Positions 22,931 to 29,822 of a DNA stretch of 64,000 nt are shown here, in pieces (positions within the stretch are counted from its first letter, which is position 1; every line of letters begins with the position of its first letter). The notes below the pieces were generated by a model. It was not told the DNA's origin, did no database searches, and saw nothing but the letters and a program-made list of their open reading frames with translations. Position numbers and translations under genes: made by a program. The stretch lies in contig NZ_JAEMVC010000002.1 of NCBI RefSeq assembly GCF_029215985.1, positions 62,001 to 126,000 on the forward strand, given 5' to 3'. The stretch comes from Sulfurimonas sp. SAG-AH-194-C21 (GTDB taxonomy: Bacteria; Campylobacterota; Campylobacteria; Campylobacterales; Sulfurimonadaceae).

Positions 22931-22940
22931 ATTTTAAAAC

Positions 22941-22977
22941 TTCATTGAGACCTTATTAGGATAAAATAATATAAAAT
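22941..22977 (+). promoter_or_regulatory. Tandem 11-base operator and promoter of the DISM kinase
   Basis: Two adjacent 11-base half-sites (TTCATTGAGAC and CTTATTAGGAT, 22941-22962) are followed after 7 bases by TATAAA (22970-22975). The same arrangement occurs at 25519-25555. Tandem 11-base repeats overlapping the -35 region are typical of OmpR/PhoB-type activators. Confidence 0.5.
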
Positions 22978-22996
22978 TCATTATGGAGACTCTTTT

Positions 22997-24844
22997 TTGA
23001 AAACATTATTTATTTTCCTTCTTCTTGTCTCTATACTCTTCTCTTTAGAGATTAATGATAAAAATATCGATATAAGTAATTTTCAAGTTAAATATCTTGA
23101 AGATAATGCTAGTCAATATACCCTCGACACTATTTTAAACCAAGACTTTAGTAAAACCATTTCAAATAAACACTCCTTTGGCAATATAAAAGACAGCACT
23201 ATCTGGGTCAAAGTGGAGTTGAGCATTCAAAGTGACATAAAGAAACTCTATCTTCAACATTTAGATACAGTAAGTGTGACAGATATTCACCTCTATTTTT
23301 TAGAAGGTAAAAAGCTCTTAAAGTCAGTAACAAGTGGAGTACAAAACAGTGAGACGAAGGCTTTTGATGCTTTGCTTAAAGTAGATGTGCAAAAAGGGAA
23401 AACCTATACATTTTTAGCAAAATACTCCACAAAAAATTCATTAATACTCAACTTAAACATATATGATGAGCAAAATTATTATGATTCTAAAAAAGATTTA
23501 CATATATTGTTTGCTCTATTTTTGGGTGTGATGGGTGCTCTTTTAATTTACAATATTTACCTCTATTTTGCTTTGAGGTATATTCAATATTTGTATTTTT
23601 TCATGATGGTGTTTGGATTGACTATATTTAACATGGCTCAAGTTGGGATTTTTATAGAGTTTTTCCCATTAAGCATTCATTTTTACGAATATTTATACTA
23701 TGCTATTTTTATAAAAATGATGTTTTTTTATCTATTTACCCAAAAGATTTTAAACACAAAACAGACAATGCCTTATGTACATATATATTTTACTTTTTCT
23801 ATCATATCTATAGTAGTTACTTTTCTTTACACGCTAGTGACCTCTTCCATATATGAGTACCTTCAAATGCTCTACTATATATTTATTTATGGAAGTATCT
23901 TAGGACTCTCTATACTTCTTTGGGCAATGTACAAGAGAGTGCCTTTTATATACCATTATAGTATAGCTACCGCACCATCGGTAGTGATGGCAATGGTATG
24001 GGCAAGTCTGTTTCTTGGATATATAGAGTACTCATACATTCCTCGCTATGGCTCTTTGTATGGTTCCATGTATGAAATGATGACGTACTCCATTCTAGTC
24101 TCTTACTATATAAAAACCATACAAAAAGAGAATGAACTTCAAAAATCCATCATGCACCAACAGGAGAAGCAGGCCTCTTTAGGAGAGCTACTTGTCTACA
24201 TTACACACCAGTGGAGAGCACCTTTAGCAACACTATCTTCTCTAGTGACACTCAATGAAGCAAAGTTGAAAAATGGCATAGAGATTTCAAAAGAGCAGTT
24301 AGAGGTGAGCATAGTAAAAAGTAATCAAGCCATTAAGTTTATGGCAGATACCATGGATAACTTCTCCTCCTTTTACAGTCCTTCAAAATTTAAAACAGAT
24401 TTTACAATACTTAGTGCGATAGAGAGTATTCAACAAATTATAGATAAAGATTTGTTAAGTTTTAAAATTGACTTAAGCATAACTGGAGATGAGAGTATCT
24501 CAATATATGGTGTTTCTAATGATATTTCTCAAATCATACTAGCATTCATTTCAAATGCAAAACATATTTTTAATGAACGCAAGATTCAAAATCCAGCGAT
24601 AGCAATACATTTTTATAAACGCAACAATAATGTCATACTAGAAGTGAGTGACAATGCAGGTGGTATTGAAGTAAAACCTATAGAAGCTATTTTTGAGCCA
24701 TTTGTAAGTGAGAGAGTCGGTACTCAGTCTGGCATAGGTTTATACATGGTAAAAAGTATTTTAGATGCAAGTGGCTCTAACATCAGTGTCAAAAATGAAA
24801 ATGGTGGTGCAAAGTTTACTGTTGTACTCAAAGAGGGACAATGA
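22997..24844 (+). CDS. 7TMR-DISM sensor histidine kinase
   Basis: A 615-residue membrane kinase. A signal sequence is followed by a periplasmic 7TMR-DISM extracellular domain (about 20-160, with DSTIWVKVEL), seven membrane segments (about 170-365), a short coiled coil, then HisKA with H404 (THQWRAPLATL) and an ATPase domain with SDNAGGI and GIGLYM. DISM domains are thought to bind carbohydrates or other small ligands. TTG start 22997 has GGAG 8 bases upstream. It overlaps its response regulator by 4 bases. Confidence 0.9.
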   Translation: MKTLFIFLLLVSILFSLEINDKNIDISNFQVKYLEDNASQYTLDTILNQDFSKTISNKHSFGNIKDSTIWVKVELSIQSDIKKLYLQHLDTVSVTDIHLYFLEGKKLLKSVTSGVQNSETKAFDALLKVDVQKGKTYTFLAKYSTKNSLILNLNIYDEQNYYDSKKDLHILFALFLGVMGALLIYNIYLYFALRYIQYLYFFMMVFGLTIFNMAQVGIFIEFFPLSIHFYEYLYYAIFIKMMFFYLFTQKILNTKQTMPYVHIYFTFSIISIVVTFLYTLVTSSIYEYLQMLYYIFIYGSILGLSILLWAMYKRVPFIYHYSIATAPSVVMAMVWASLFLGYIEYSYIPRYGSLYGSMYEMMTYSILVSYYIKTIQKENELQKSIMHQQEKQASLGELLVYITHQWRAPLATLSSLVTLNEAKLKNGIEISKEQLEVSIVKSNQAIKFMADTMDNFSSFYSPSKFKTDFTILSAIESIQQIIDKDLLSFKIDLSITGDESISIYGVSNDISQIILAFISNAKHIFNERKIQNPAIAIHFYKRNNNVILEVSDNAGGIEVKPIEAIFEPFVSERVGTQSGIGLYMVKSILDASGSNISVKNENGGAKFTVVLKEGQ

Positions 24845-25515
24845 AAATATTAAAACAGTGCAATATTTTGTTGCTAGAAGATGATAAAGAATTTGCTTCT
24901 AATTTAGTCCAAGTATTAGAATTATATTTTCAAACTGTATATTTTAAGACAAATATTTCAGATGCCCTAGCGATAGTGCAAAAAGAAAAGATAGATGTTA
25001 TCATAAGTGATATCCACTTAGAAAAAGAGAATGGTCTGGATTTTATAGCAACACTTAGAAAAGAGAAGAACGATATACCCATTATTATATTTTCAGGATT
25101 TAAAGATGAAAAGTATCTTTTTAAAGCTATTGAACTTGGTGTGATAGATTATATTGTGAAACCTTTTGATTTAAAGCGACTAGAAGAGGTTTTAAGTCGA
25201 TATGCTCAAACGCTTAGTGATAAACAAGACAACACTTATCAGATAAAAAACAATATGTATTTTGACATGGATAAAAAGATTCTCTATGAAGATGACAAAG
25301 AAGTGACACTCACTGCTAAAGAGTACCTGTTTTTAGCCTTTGCAATTGAGAAAAAAAGCTATATCCTTACCCGAGAGATGATAGAGAGTGCTGTGTATGG
25401 ACAAGAACTTATGAGTATAGCTGCTTTAAAAAATCTACTCTTTCGTATTAGAAAAAAGCTTGGAAAAGAATTTATTACAACCCTTCCTGAACTTGGGTAT
25501 AAAATCAACATATAA
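24841..25515 (+). CDS. OmpR-family response regulator
   Basis: A 224-residue regulator. The receiver domain has the acidic pair near 14-15, phosphoacceptor D57 (IISDIHL) and Lys in YIVKPFD. A winged-helix domain (about 133-224) ends in PELGYKINI. It overlaps the DISM kinase gene by 4 bases, so the pair forms a two-component system. The shared tandem repeats before the kinase and before the next gene are good candidates for its own binding sites. Confidence 0.92.
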   Translation: MKILKQCNILLLEDDKEFASNLVQVLELYFQTVYFKTNISDALAIVQKEKIDVIISDIHLEKENGLDFIATLRKEKNDIPIIIFSGFKDEKYLFKAIELGVIDYIVKPFDLKRLEEVLSRYAQTLSDKQDNTYQIKNNMYFDMDKKILYEDDKEVTLTAKEYLFLAFAIEKKSYILTREMIESAVYGQELMSIAALKNLLFRIRKKLGKEFITTLPELGYKINI

Positions 25516-25518
25516 GAC

Positions 25519-25555
25519 CTCGCTGAGACTTCATTAAGATAAAATTGTCTATAAT
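25519..25555 (+). promoter_or_regulatory. Second copy of the tandem operator, with promoter
   Basis: Half-sites CTCGCTGAGAC and TTCATTAAGAT (25519-25540) match those at 22941-22962. A TATAAT follows at 25550-25555, 9 bases on. The copy lies between the response regulator gene and the GGDEF regulator gene. Confidence 0.5.
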
Positions 25556-25587: not shown

Positions 25588-26469
25588 ATGAAAGATAAAC
25601 CAACTATTCTTATAGTAGATGACACAAAAGAAAACATTAATATTTTATTGTCTTTGTTAAAAGATTATGATGTAGTTGTTGCCCTAAATGGTCAAAAAGC
25701 TCTGCAGATGACTACAAAAAATGAGATTGACCTCATTTTACTCGATATTGTGATGCCTGAGATGGATGGGTATGAAGTATGTAAAGCCTTTAAGGATAGT
25801 ATAAAAACACAAAATATTCCTATACTCTTTATCACTGCAAATAGCGATGATGTATCAATTGAGAAAGCTTTTAGCATGGGTGGTGTTGATTATGTTACTA
25901 AACCCTTTAAACCAGTAGAACTCTTAGCACGTGTCAAAACCCACTTACAACTTAGCCAAACCCTGAAAAAATTAGAAGATTTAGCAACAAAAGATTATTT
26001 AACTGGAATATACAATAGAAGAATGTTTTTTCAACTAGGAGAGACACTGCTAAGAACCAATGAAAAAGTATTTGGTGTGATGATAGATATAGACAAATTT
26101 AAAAATATAAACGATACATATGGGCACTGCTTTGGTGATACAGTTCTTAAAAGTGTCGTAAACACAATACAAAAATTTGTTACACAAGATATGGTTTTTG
26201 CTCGTTTAGGAGGGGAAGAGTTTGCTCTACTTATACAGAGTGATTCTGAAGATGCAGTACTTCAAAAAGTTGAACAGATACGCCAGGCAGTCCAAGCGAT
26301 AGAAGAAAGTCATGAAAACAGTACCGTCAAGATTACTATAAGCAATGGTATAGCCAACTCTAAAGAGTATGACACCTTAAATACCTTGATGGCACAAGCA
26401 GATGAAGCACTCTATGATGCCAAAGGAAGTGGGAGAAATAAAGTCTGTTTATTTAGAAGCCGTACATGA
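25588..26469 (+). CDS. Response regulator with GGDEF domain (diguanylate cyclase)
   Basis: A 293-residue protein with a receiver domain (about 5-120, D53 in LLDIVMP) and a GGDEF domain (about 135-290) with the active-site GGEEF (208-212). It is predicted to make c-di-GMP when phosphorylated. The overlap of 4 bases with the following FIST hybrid kinase suggests that kinase as its phosphodonor. The upstream tandem repeat suggests control by the regulator at 24841. Confidence 0.92.
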
Positions 26470-29400
26470 AAACATTTAATACCTACTTTAGCTCGAAAGA
26501 AGATTTAGAACAGTTTATAGATTCTAACAATATTATAGATTCTGACACGTTAATGATTCAAGTGTTTAGTGCACACAATAACGAAACATATATTCAAAAT
26601 TTACTAGATATTGTAAATACTCTACTCCCTCTCTCTCAACTCATAGGAGCAACTACTGATGGTGAGATAAACAATGGAGAGGTCTCCACTAACAAAACAG
26701 TCATAAGTTTTACACACTTTAAGGCTACAACTCTTAGTACTTATATAGCTCAAGAATTTGAAGACTTTTATACTGCTGGAAAAAATCTTGCTCTTAATTT
26801 ATTAGAGCCTCATACTAAAGTTATTATCTCTTTTATTGATGGATTACACGGGAATGGAGAAGACTATTTAAATGGGATAAACGCGGTAAACTCTAGCATC
26901 AAAGTAGTTGGTGGTATGGCTGGGGACAATGCTCAGTTTGTGAAGACTTTAGTTTTTGATAAGCATACTATTTACGAAAATGGTGTTGTCGGTATGGCAC
27001 TGCATTCAAAAACTCTTCAAGTCCACACAGATTATAGTTTTAACTGGATTCCTATTGGAAAAAGTCTAACTATCACTAAGGCAGTTTCAAATCGCGTCTA
27101 TACCATAAACAATAAAACAGCTTATGAAACTTATGCATACTATTTGGGTGAAGATGTTGCTGCACAACTCCCTGCAATAGGCATAGAGTTTCCTTTAATT
27201 ATAAAACGCAATGGTCTCAACATCGCTCGTGCAGTACTAGGCAAAGAGGATGATGGCTCACTCATTTTTGCCGGTAACTTAGAAGAAGGTGATGTTGTCA
27301 GGTTTGGATATGGAGATAGTGATTCTATTTTAGGACATACAAAAAAAAATATTATAAAAATTATAGATAAACCTATAGAGTCTATATTTATCTACTCTTG
27401 TATGGCAAGACGACGTTTTATGCCTGACCTCATAGAGCATGAGACAAAGCCTTTTAACACCATTGCAGATACAGCGGGCTTTTTTACCTATGGGGAGTTT
27501 TTTAGCTCTGAGAGAAAAGAGTTACTCAACCAGTCGATGACACTTCTACTTTTGAGTGAATCAGAAGATACACAAAAGCATGTGAATGTCGATGATATAG
27601 TACAGACAAAATCCAATGAAAACGATACAATAAAAGCGCTCTCGCACCTCATTAATATCGCATCCACAGAGCTTGAAGAGACAAATACAAAACTGCAAAT
27701 AGCAAAAGATAAAGCAGAACAAGCAACAGAGATAAAATCAGAATTTCTAGCAAATATGAGTCATGAAATAAGAACACCAATGAATGGCATCATAGGCATG
27801 ACACACCTGGCACTAAAGACCAACTTAGATGATAATCAAAAACACTACCTTCAAAAGATAGACAATTCTGCAAAGTCACTACTAAACATTATCAATGATA
27901 TTTTAGATTTTTCAAAAATTGAAGCAGGAAAACTCACTATTGAAAAAAGAGATTTTGATCTTTTTGAACTCATTGACAATATTGTTGATCTTATAGAGTT
28001 TAAAGTCCAAGAAAAAAATCTTGAACTCATTATAAGCTACACACAAGATTTAGAGAAAAATTTTCATGGTGATGCTCTGCGTATTAGTCAGGTGCTTACA
28101 AACTTCATGAGTAACGCTATTAAGTTTACTATGTATGGAGAAATAGGTATTTATATCTCTAAAACTCAAGAGAATAGGCTTCGTTTTGAAGTCAAAGATA
28201 CTGGCATAGGACTCTCTTTAGAACACCAAAGTCATCTCTTTGAGTCATTTTCACAGGCTGATGGCAGCACCACTCGAAAATATGGAGGAACAGGACTTGG
28301 TCTTAGTATTTCTAAGCAGTTGGTTGAACTTATGGGTGGGAAAATTTGGATAGAGAGTGAGATTGGCGTTGGTAGTAGTTTTATATTTGAACTCTCTCTT
28401 GAGGAGTCTCAGGAGAAGAAGACTTATAAGTATTTTAACAACAAAAGAGTCCTCATCGTCGATGATAACCCCGTATGGCACACAATATTAGGAAATATCC
28501 TTGAAAAATTTGGGATAGAGGTAGAGTCTGCGTTAAGTGGTGAAGATGCCATAGAAATTTTGTGTGATAATTCAATAGGGTATGATTTAATACTGATGGA
28601 TTGGAATATGCCAGGGCTAAATGGTATAGAGACGACACAATCCATAAGAGAGTGTACTTTAATCAAAAAAATACCAACAGTTATAATGGTGAGTGCGATT
28701 AGACAAGAGAGTATTGTAAAACTCTCTCAAGAGGTAGGCATTGACATTTTTATACAAAAACCTGTGAATCCTTCTGTTTTCAATGATATATTGTCCGGTC
28801 TTTTTTCAGGTGATGTAGCTGTAAAGTATGGCAATAGTAAAAAACATATAAGTCTAGAAAAAGAGTTAAGCACTCTTAGAGGGAGTAAAATTTTACTCAC
28901 AGAGGACAATGATACCAACCAAGAAATCATACTAGGACTACTGCAAAATAGTGGTATAGAGATAGACATAGCCAACAATGGACAAGAAGCAGTCGATGCT
29001 TTTAAAGAGAATGAGTATGCACTTCTTTTGATGGATGTGCATATGCCGATTATGGATGGTTTAGAGGCAACAAGAATTATTCGAGAGCAAAATAAGGAGA
29101 TACCTATCATAGCGTTAACTGCAAACGCCATGATAGAAGATGTCCAAAAGACTCAAGCGGCGGGAATGAATGAGCATCTTAACAAACCCATAGATGTTGA
29201 GAAACTATATGCTACTCTTCTAAAATATATGCAAAAAAAGACAGATATTCAAGATATGAAGCTTATAGTAGAGAGTGTAGAAATACCGAATTTTACACAT
29301 ATTGACACAGAACTAGGACTACATTACCTAGGAGACAATAGAAAACTCTATGTGAAGATTTTACATAACTTTGTCAAAAACTATCAAGGCATCGTACTAA

Positions 29401-29822
29401 ACGAACTTTCTCAAGAGCAAAGAGAGAGAGTATTGCATACAATGAAAGGACTCAGTGTCAACCTTGGTGCAATAGCATTAAACATGATTATCAAAAAGCT
29501 TGAAGCAAATAGTAGTAGCAAAAAACTTGAAGCTCAGTTTTACAAAGAGCTTGAAGTAGTTACACAAGAGATACAGAAACTCTTACCCCTACAGACTAAA
29601 GCGACTTCACCAAAAATAAATACTTCACCTGCTGAGATTCAAAAGTTTTTTGTACAATTAAAAGCTGCTGTTGAAAAAGAGAGACCCCAACAGTGCGAAT
29701 CTATCATCGAAGATTTAAATAAATGTCATTTATCTCAAGCAGAGAGCCTTTTACTTGATTCTATTTGTGAGAATATTGATGATTTTGATTTTACGGAAGC
29801 CTTGAATAAATTTCCATTCTAA
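26466..29822 (+). CDS. FIST-domain hybrid histidine kinase with two receivers and HPt
   Basis: A 1118-residue multi-domain sensor with no membrane segments. The order is FIST N and C domains (about 1-375, putative small-ligand sensors), a coiled coil, HisKA (H433 in [10 protein letters not shown]), ATPase domain, receiver 1 (D712 in LMDWNMPG), receiver 2 (D857 in LMDVHMPI) and a C-terminal HPt domain with H991 in [12 protein letters not shown]. All phosphotransfer residues are present, so a full internal relay is possible. FIST domains are thought to sense amino acids or their derivatives. It is coupled to the GGDEF regulator. Confidence 0.92.

Follow-up and report, generated by a model that had tools for sequence, protein, structure and literature searches.

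A putative direct-repeat operator-promoter shared by two signalling operons accompanies an OmpR/PhoB-type regulator subfamily in Sulfurimonas

Two signalling operons of Sulfurimonas sp. SAG-AH-194-C21 lie one after the other, each preceded by a similar tandem repeat, and the gene of an OmpR/PhoB-type response regulator stands between the two repeats. This arrangement raises the question of whether the regulator controls both its own operon and the next one, thereby tying a membrane sensor to c-di-GMP output. We addressed this question by computational analysis of the window, the whole 64,000-nucleotide stretch of DNA under study, which is part of contig C16 of a 2.23 Mb, 88%-complete genome. 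Open reading frames and Pfam domains yield the gene order CbtA/CbiM-type pair, DISM sensor kinase, OmpR/PhoB-type regulator, REC-GGDEF protein and FIST hybrid kinase (Table 1), confirming the identities that the original prediction had given to the last four. The kinase and regulator genes overlap by 4 bases, as do those of the REC-GGDEF protein and the FIST hybrid kinase. The first candidate operator, S1, lies upstream of the DISM kinase gene and the second, S2, immediately 3' of the regulator gene. The regulator combines a receiver domain (PF00072, E 1.2e-24) with a winged-helix Trans_reg_C domain (PF00486, E 8.4e-9), as OmpR/PhoB response regulators do. The DISM kinase contains, as read by eye, the H-box ITHQWRAPLATLSS; for this motif, and for the GGEEF and HTMKG motifs of the second operon, we assume the customary meanings to hold in these proteins.

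Table 1. Positions in the window of the two putative operator-promoters, their parts and the signalling genes that they precede
Feature	Position	Strand	Basis
S1, putative operator-promoter before the DISM kinase-regulator operon	22935-22967	+	Ungapped 33-column block common to nine sites
S1, first repeat TAAAAC	22935-22940		
S1, second repeat TGAGAC	22946-22951		
S1, weaker third repeat TAGGAT	22957-22962		
S1, -10 element TAAAAT	22962-22967		
Sensor histidine kinase (7TMR-DISMED2, 7TMR-DISM_7TM, HATPase_c)	22997-24844	+	ORF, Pfam; TTG start
OmpR/PhoB-type response regulator (Response_reg, Trans_reg_C), presumed binder of both operators	24841-25515	+	Pfam
S2, putative operator-promoter before the REC-GGDEF/FIST operon	25513-25545	+	Same nine-site block as S1
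S2, first repeat TAAGAC	25513-25518		
S2, second repeat TGAGAC	25524-25529		
S2, third repeat TAAGAT	25535-25540		
S2, -10 element TAAAAT	25540-25545		
REC-GGDEF diguanylate cyclase, first gene of the second operon	25588-26469	+	Pfam; GGEEF motif by eye
Hybrid kinase (FIST-N/FIST-C, HisKA, HATPase_c, REC, REC; HPt-like C-terminus)	26466-29822	+	Pfam; HTMKG by eye

Because S1 and S2 are unlike at 8 of 28 positions, a strict consensus allowing up to 3 mismatches recovered S1 alone, and degenerate patterns were used instead. One such pattern, covering both sites and again with up to 3 mismatches, matched S1 and S2 and nothing else in the 2.23 Mb of the 88%-complete genome, and the reversed pattern gave no match in the same search; the motif, whose random occurrence throughout the genome had been named as a possible objection, is not scattered at random. 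A score matrix built from S1 and S2 alone was then run over three other loci, with 8 shuffles per locus. Its top matches (3/3 in genome G135, 2/2 in G153 and 2/2 on contig C2 of the same genome as the window) all exceeded every shuffle, the weakest of the seven scoring 13.8 against 12.2 for the best shuffle. The two matches on C2 lie around a receiver-less paralogue of the regulator. Over the 36 ungapped pairs that can be formed from the nine sites, mean identity is 0.69 in a 33-base block as opposed to 0.31 in its flanks. A search of the three genomes with 2 mismatches returned 22, 15 and 12 matches against 13, 8 and 19 for the reversed control; as these counts are close to the control, only sites without mismatch were taken from that search. 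S1 and S2 are real and far above chance.

Read by column, the nine-site block consists of three 11-base repeats ending in TRARAC, TRAGAC and TANGWT, the last T of the third repeat being also the first base of a -10 element, TANNMT. The general consensus for -10 elements is TATAAT, conventionally numbered -12 to -7. The conserved unit is RARAC-N5-TRAGAC-N10-TANNMT, with half-sites 11 bp apart and the -10 element exactly 10 bp downstream, and both S1 and S2 fit this geometry at 15/15. The half-site pair RARAC-N5-TRAGAC is exact in seven of the nine close sites, both G153 sites having one mismatch in the first half-site, and TANNMT follows TRAGAC after exactly 10 bases in all nine. When the loci of 20 relatives were searched for the half-site pair with the -10 element left out of the pattern, 11 of the 12 exact pairs proved to have TANNMT at N10 as well. 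The sites thus display two of the features of a direct-repeat OmpR/PhoB operator, namely two half-sites about 11 bp apart and a fixed placement beside a -10 element. The paired 11-mers of the original prediction (TTCATTGAGAC/CTTATTAGGAT at 22941-22962 and CTCGCTGAGAC/TTCATTAAGAT at 25519-25540) are real but were drawn one repeat out of register: the stronger pair is shifted upstream by one repeat, and what was taken for the second half-site is the weaker, -10-proximal repeat. The -10 boxes placed 7 to 9 bases beyond the half-sites were rejected, since that spacing is not conserved among the nine close sites or in the relatives' loci; the conserved -10 element TAAAAT is instead fused to the end of the second 11-mer. 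Distant relatives keep the first two repeats and their 10-base spacing to the -10 element and lose the third repeat, and the functional half-site pair is thus most likely formed by the upstream two. The upstream hexamer of S2 contains the TAA stop codon of the regulator gene (25513-25515), and a regulator stop codon TAA falls inside the first half-site at three places: in S2, after the C2 paralogue and after the G153 regulator.

To place the operator in the genus, 135 Sulfurimonas genomes were searched, the regulator being scored as present where a relative reached E <= 1e-34 and remoter regulators counting as absent; by this definition it occurs in 23 of the 135. A strict pattern, built from the nine sites that it then recovered, gave 10 matches, the nine derivation sites and one in a coding region, with 0 in the control. 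The additional match, in G100, is the sole exact one outside the three derivation genomes and was discarded as chance on account of its position inside a reading frame. The loose geometry RARAC-N5-TRAGAC-N10-TANNMT produced 29 matches in 18 of the 135 genomes, against 16 for the reversed control. Genomes with a match make up 14/23 of those with the regulator and 4/112 of those without it (Fisher p = 5e-10), compared with 5/23 and 11/112 for the reversed pattern (p = 0.15). Without the three derivation genomes, the geometry gives 12/20 and 4/112 (p = 5e-9) and the reversed pattern 5/20 and 11/112 (p = 0.07). The operator hence co-occurs with its regulator, a further feature of direct-repeat OmpR/PhoB operators. 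Seven of the 29 loose matches are the sites of the window's genome and of G135, 15 lie at sensor-kinase operons of other genomes or at their divergent partners, and seven lie elsewhere (G066, G132 and G133, in reading frames; G139; G084, contigs C18 and C73; G112, contig C12), at least three of these seven being inside reading frames. Two of the matches elsewhere, before the gene of a DUF4347 protein and before a Cache-GGDEF gene, may be genuine targets.

The loci of 20 relatives (190,754 bases) contain 17 matches of at least 14/15, while shuffles contain 0.35 on average and 1 at most, and all 17 lie directly upstream of a sensor/kinase operon or of its divergent neighbour. Such a match precedes the operon in 11 of the 20 loci; in G122 and G137 matches of at least 14/15 are found on another contig that carries a sensor gene, and seven distant loci (G063, G065, G067, G086, G103, G139 and G035) have no match of that quality. 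In the window as in G135 and G153, the operator stands immediately upstream of the kinase-regulator operon. This putative operator-promoter type accordingly appears as a companion of an OmpR/PhoB regulator subfamily through Sulfurimonas. A lone regulator relative in G065 (L168, 7127-9230) is divergent from a gene that resembles, by eye, that of the G084 DUF4347 protein; the intergenic stretch between them has other repeats and no operator of TRAGAC type.

The link to c-di-GMP recurs beyond the window. Seven further genomes have, next to a sensor-kinase-regulator operon, a REC-GGDEF gene with an operator copy of its own, and the seven proteins are 50-54% identical to that of the window (53% in G062). 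The gene is divergent from the sensor operon in G062, G005, G076, G098 and G137, with an operator matching at 14 or 15 of 15, whereas in G121 (15/15) and G146 (14/15) the divergent operator heads a unit with REC-GGDEF as second gene, the first gene of the G121 unit encoding a hybrid kinase. G103 has the same divergent REC-GGDEF arrangement and no operator match of at least 14/15. The sensor of G062, the one to which Pfam was applied, is of the NMT1/SBP type, and most of the other sensors share its N-terminal sequence by eye. Given these REC-GGDEF operators in other genomes and the non-DISM sensor of G062, the association of REC-GGDEF with this regulator family probably predates the window's DISM sensor. 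A REC-GGDEF/FIST operon stands alone in G036, its proteins 68% and 64% identical to their window counterparts and no relative of the regulator detected in the genome at E <= 1e-34; the best operator match there is 12/15, a score also reached by 17 of 200 shuffles of that region, which makes G036 an imperfect natural negative control. Relatives of the REC-GGDEF protein (E <= 1e-75) occur in 27 of the 135 genomes, some of them without the operator, so that the link is a recurring arrangement and not a rule. An operator-headed hybrid kinase gene divergent from the sensor operon was also observed on contig C4 of G121 (L178) and on contig C288 of G122 (L179); the long N-terminus of this kinase looks permease-like by eye and, in G121, has no Pfam match.

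The reading that best accommodates these observations is the one originally predicted, in which S1 and S2 are operator-promoters of the intervening regulator, which would activate its own operon and the REC-GGDEF/FIST operon; we assign it a probability of about 0.78. It draws on an operator that is conserved, keeps a fixed geometry, stands before these genes and is largely restricted to genomes with the regulator family. From there onwards we infer each arrow of the circuit, including regulator binding, activation, phosphotransfer and the signal. The DISM kinase would phosphorylate the regulator, a dimer of which would bind in head-to-tail orientation to the pair of TRAGAC-type half-sites, spaced by 11 bp on one face of the helix. 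If the -10 element is placed at -12 to -7, this pair would occupy about -39 to -23, and the bound regulator, sitting just upstream of a -10 element without a good -35 element, would recruit RNA polymerase to both operons, its own and that of REC-GGDEF/FIST. The expected outcome is positive autoregulation together with control over the amount of the c-di-GMP module, the activity of which would be set by the FIST hybrid kinase, so that FIST input gates c-di-GMP output. In such a circuit the DISM signal would pass through kinase and regulator to yield more of both, and more REC-GGDEF protein and FIST kinase. As far as genome comparison can support them, autoregulation and the c-di-GMP link are well supported inferences.

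This kind of regulation is already known from PhoB, KdpE, HP1043 and PceP, four systems that are considered here from excerpts of their published accounts. HP1043 of Helicobacter pylori, in the same phylum, is an OmpR/PhoB-family activator whose two target hexamers, separated by 5 bp, lie at -42 to -26 (PMC8345958, in excerpt), a hexamer-N5-hexamer layout overlapping the promoter as here. Its hexamer is TTTAAG, however, as opposed to TRAGAC, and HP1043 is described as an essential orphan that acts independently of phosphorylation, is modelled head to head and has 37 reproducible sites, in contrast to the local autoregulated pair of the window (PMC8345958, in excerpt). PceP/PceS of Sulfurospirillum, again in the same phylum, has an OmpR-family regulator and a -10 element TANNAT; PceP regulates the operon that encodes it, and also a divergent neighbour, through elements over the -35 region, in which CTATA with 6-base gaps amounts to three copies with an 11-bp period, but its repeat is described as CTATW-N17-CTATW and its targets are organohalide respiration genes (PMC7755780, in excerpt). 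In Escherichia coli, KdpE uses a pair of 6-bp direct repeats with 5 bp between them (PMC3264566, in excerpt), and the PHO box of PhoB comprises two direct repeat units of 11 bp, to which the protein binds head to tail (PMC4415409, in excerpt); the window differs from both in sequence, sensors and regulated genes, and we do not claim that it belongs to either regulon. The second operon encodes FIST, kinase and c-di-GMP receiver protein together, as does the NosP-NosK-NosR system of nitric-oxide signalling, in which FIST is the sensor that directs a kinase and a c-di-GMP receiver protein (PMC12570481, in excerpt); here, in contrast, FIST and kinase form one hybrid protein and the output is REC-GGDEF. 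No treatment of this Sulfurimonas operator or sensor system was found in the open-access literature. Less ordinary are the operator lying across the regulator's stop codon and the receiver-less paralogue with the same recognition stretch.

Position relative to the promoter also bears on the direction of control. The regulator might bind S1 and S2 mainly to repress, the third 11-mer, which overlaps the -10 element, blocking polymerase and phosphorylation relieving or strengthening the block; in the nine close sites this third repeat retains some conservation and adjoins the -10 element, but it is lost in distant relatives, where the half-site pair and the N10 spacing stay, and the position fits both the activator sites of HP1043 (PMC8345958, in excerpt) and the -35-region elements of PceP, argued to be activating (PMC7755780, in excerpt). 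Because of this likeness in position we regard activation as the likelier direction and predominant repression as unlikely. The sites might also serve another regulator, either an HP1043-like global one or another OmpR-type protein, with their closeness to the regulator gene being incidental. Such a reading could draw on the 52 matches to the regulator in the same genome, which indicate many receiver or OmpR-type proteins, and on the hexamer-N5-hexamer layout of HP1043 sites (PMC8345958, in excerpt); we consider it very improbable, since the operator occurs mostly in genomes that have this subfamily and precedes the subfamily's own operon, and sites of a global regulator would be expected in the majority of the 135 genomes. 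That the sites resemble each other as relics of a DNA duplication at the 3' end of the regulator gene, with no role in binding, is barely credible and largely refuted by the flanks, for although 78% of the 40 bases on the left (regulator coding sequence) agree between S2 and the site that follows the paralogue, left-flank identity is at most 0.47 in the other 35 of 36 pairs, the block reaches at least 0.58 in all 36, and sites before kinase operons have no flank in common with sites after regulators.

Activation by the regulator would extend to further transcripts of the same genome. The receiver-less paralogue on contig C2 (L002, 1480-1836) is a protein of 118 amino acids, 60% identical to the DNA-binding domain of the regulator; its first residues match the regulator's start, after which the match resumes where the receiver ends, as if this domain had been excised in frame. 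It is flanked by operators on either side, the second of which precedes the gene of a protein with 21 FG-GAP_2 repeats. As the same operators stand before the paralogue and its FG-GAP protein, this genome probably has one regulon of four transcripts. G135, whose regulator and DISM kinase are 57-58% and 50% identical to those of the window (the latter over 600 aligned residues), has an FG-GAP protein 57% identical to that of C2 under one of its operators. The LKNLLFRIRKKLGK recognition stretch is identical in the window regulator, the G135 regulator and the C2 paralogue, that is, where the operator is closest, and differs in two relatives of 36-40% identity. A protein search of named genomes found the G135 contig (JALWTK010000118.1) as sole close relative, the rest being remote, and no new operators. 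The operator follows the regulator frame directly in S2, after the C2 paralogue and in G153, where the next protein is DUF285/Fib_succ-like. On contig C7 of G153 (L066, L086) the kinase and regulator frames have several stops or shifts, with both operators intact; these breaks may reflect assembly errors or recent decay. A different OmpR-type gene of G135 (C22:5365; L106, about 1496-1530) has a tandem 11-mer, CTTCATTAAAA/CTTCATTAAGC, a few bases past its stop codon, and placement of an operator immediately 3' of a regulator gene may be common in this group.

We tentatively consider, as a possibility that falls well short of probable, that regulator and operator form a cassette whose parts move together, and that the receiver-less paralogue acts on the same four promoters without phosphorylation. 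The operator starts in the stop codon (the TAA of TAAGAC or TAAAAC); on this reading the 3' end of the gene would provide a ready promoter, so that any gene lying downstream would come under control: the REC-GGDEF/FIST operon in the window and, likewise, the giant FG-GAP protein on C2 and the DUF285/Fib_succ-like protein in G153. The paralogue would then be a signal-independent activator of the four promoters or a competitor of the DISM-controlled regulator.

Our analysis provides a sequence-defined operator for a Sulfurimonas sensor-regulator family and a small predicted regulon that would connect membrane sensors (DISM in the window, NMT1/SBP in G062) to REC-GGDEF enzymes and surface-type proteins. 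Through the receiver-less paralogue, the phosphorylation-independent sharing of one set of operators becomes directly testable.
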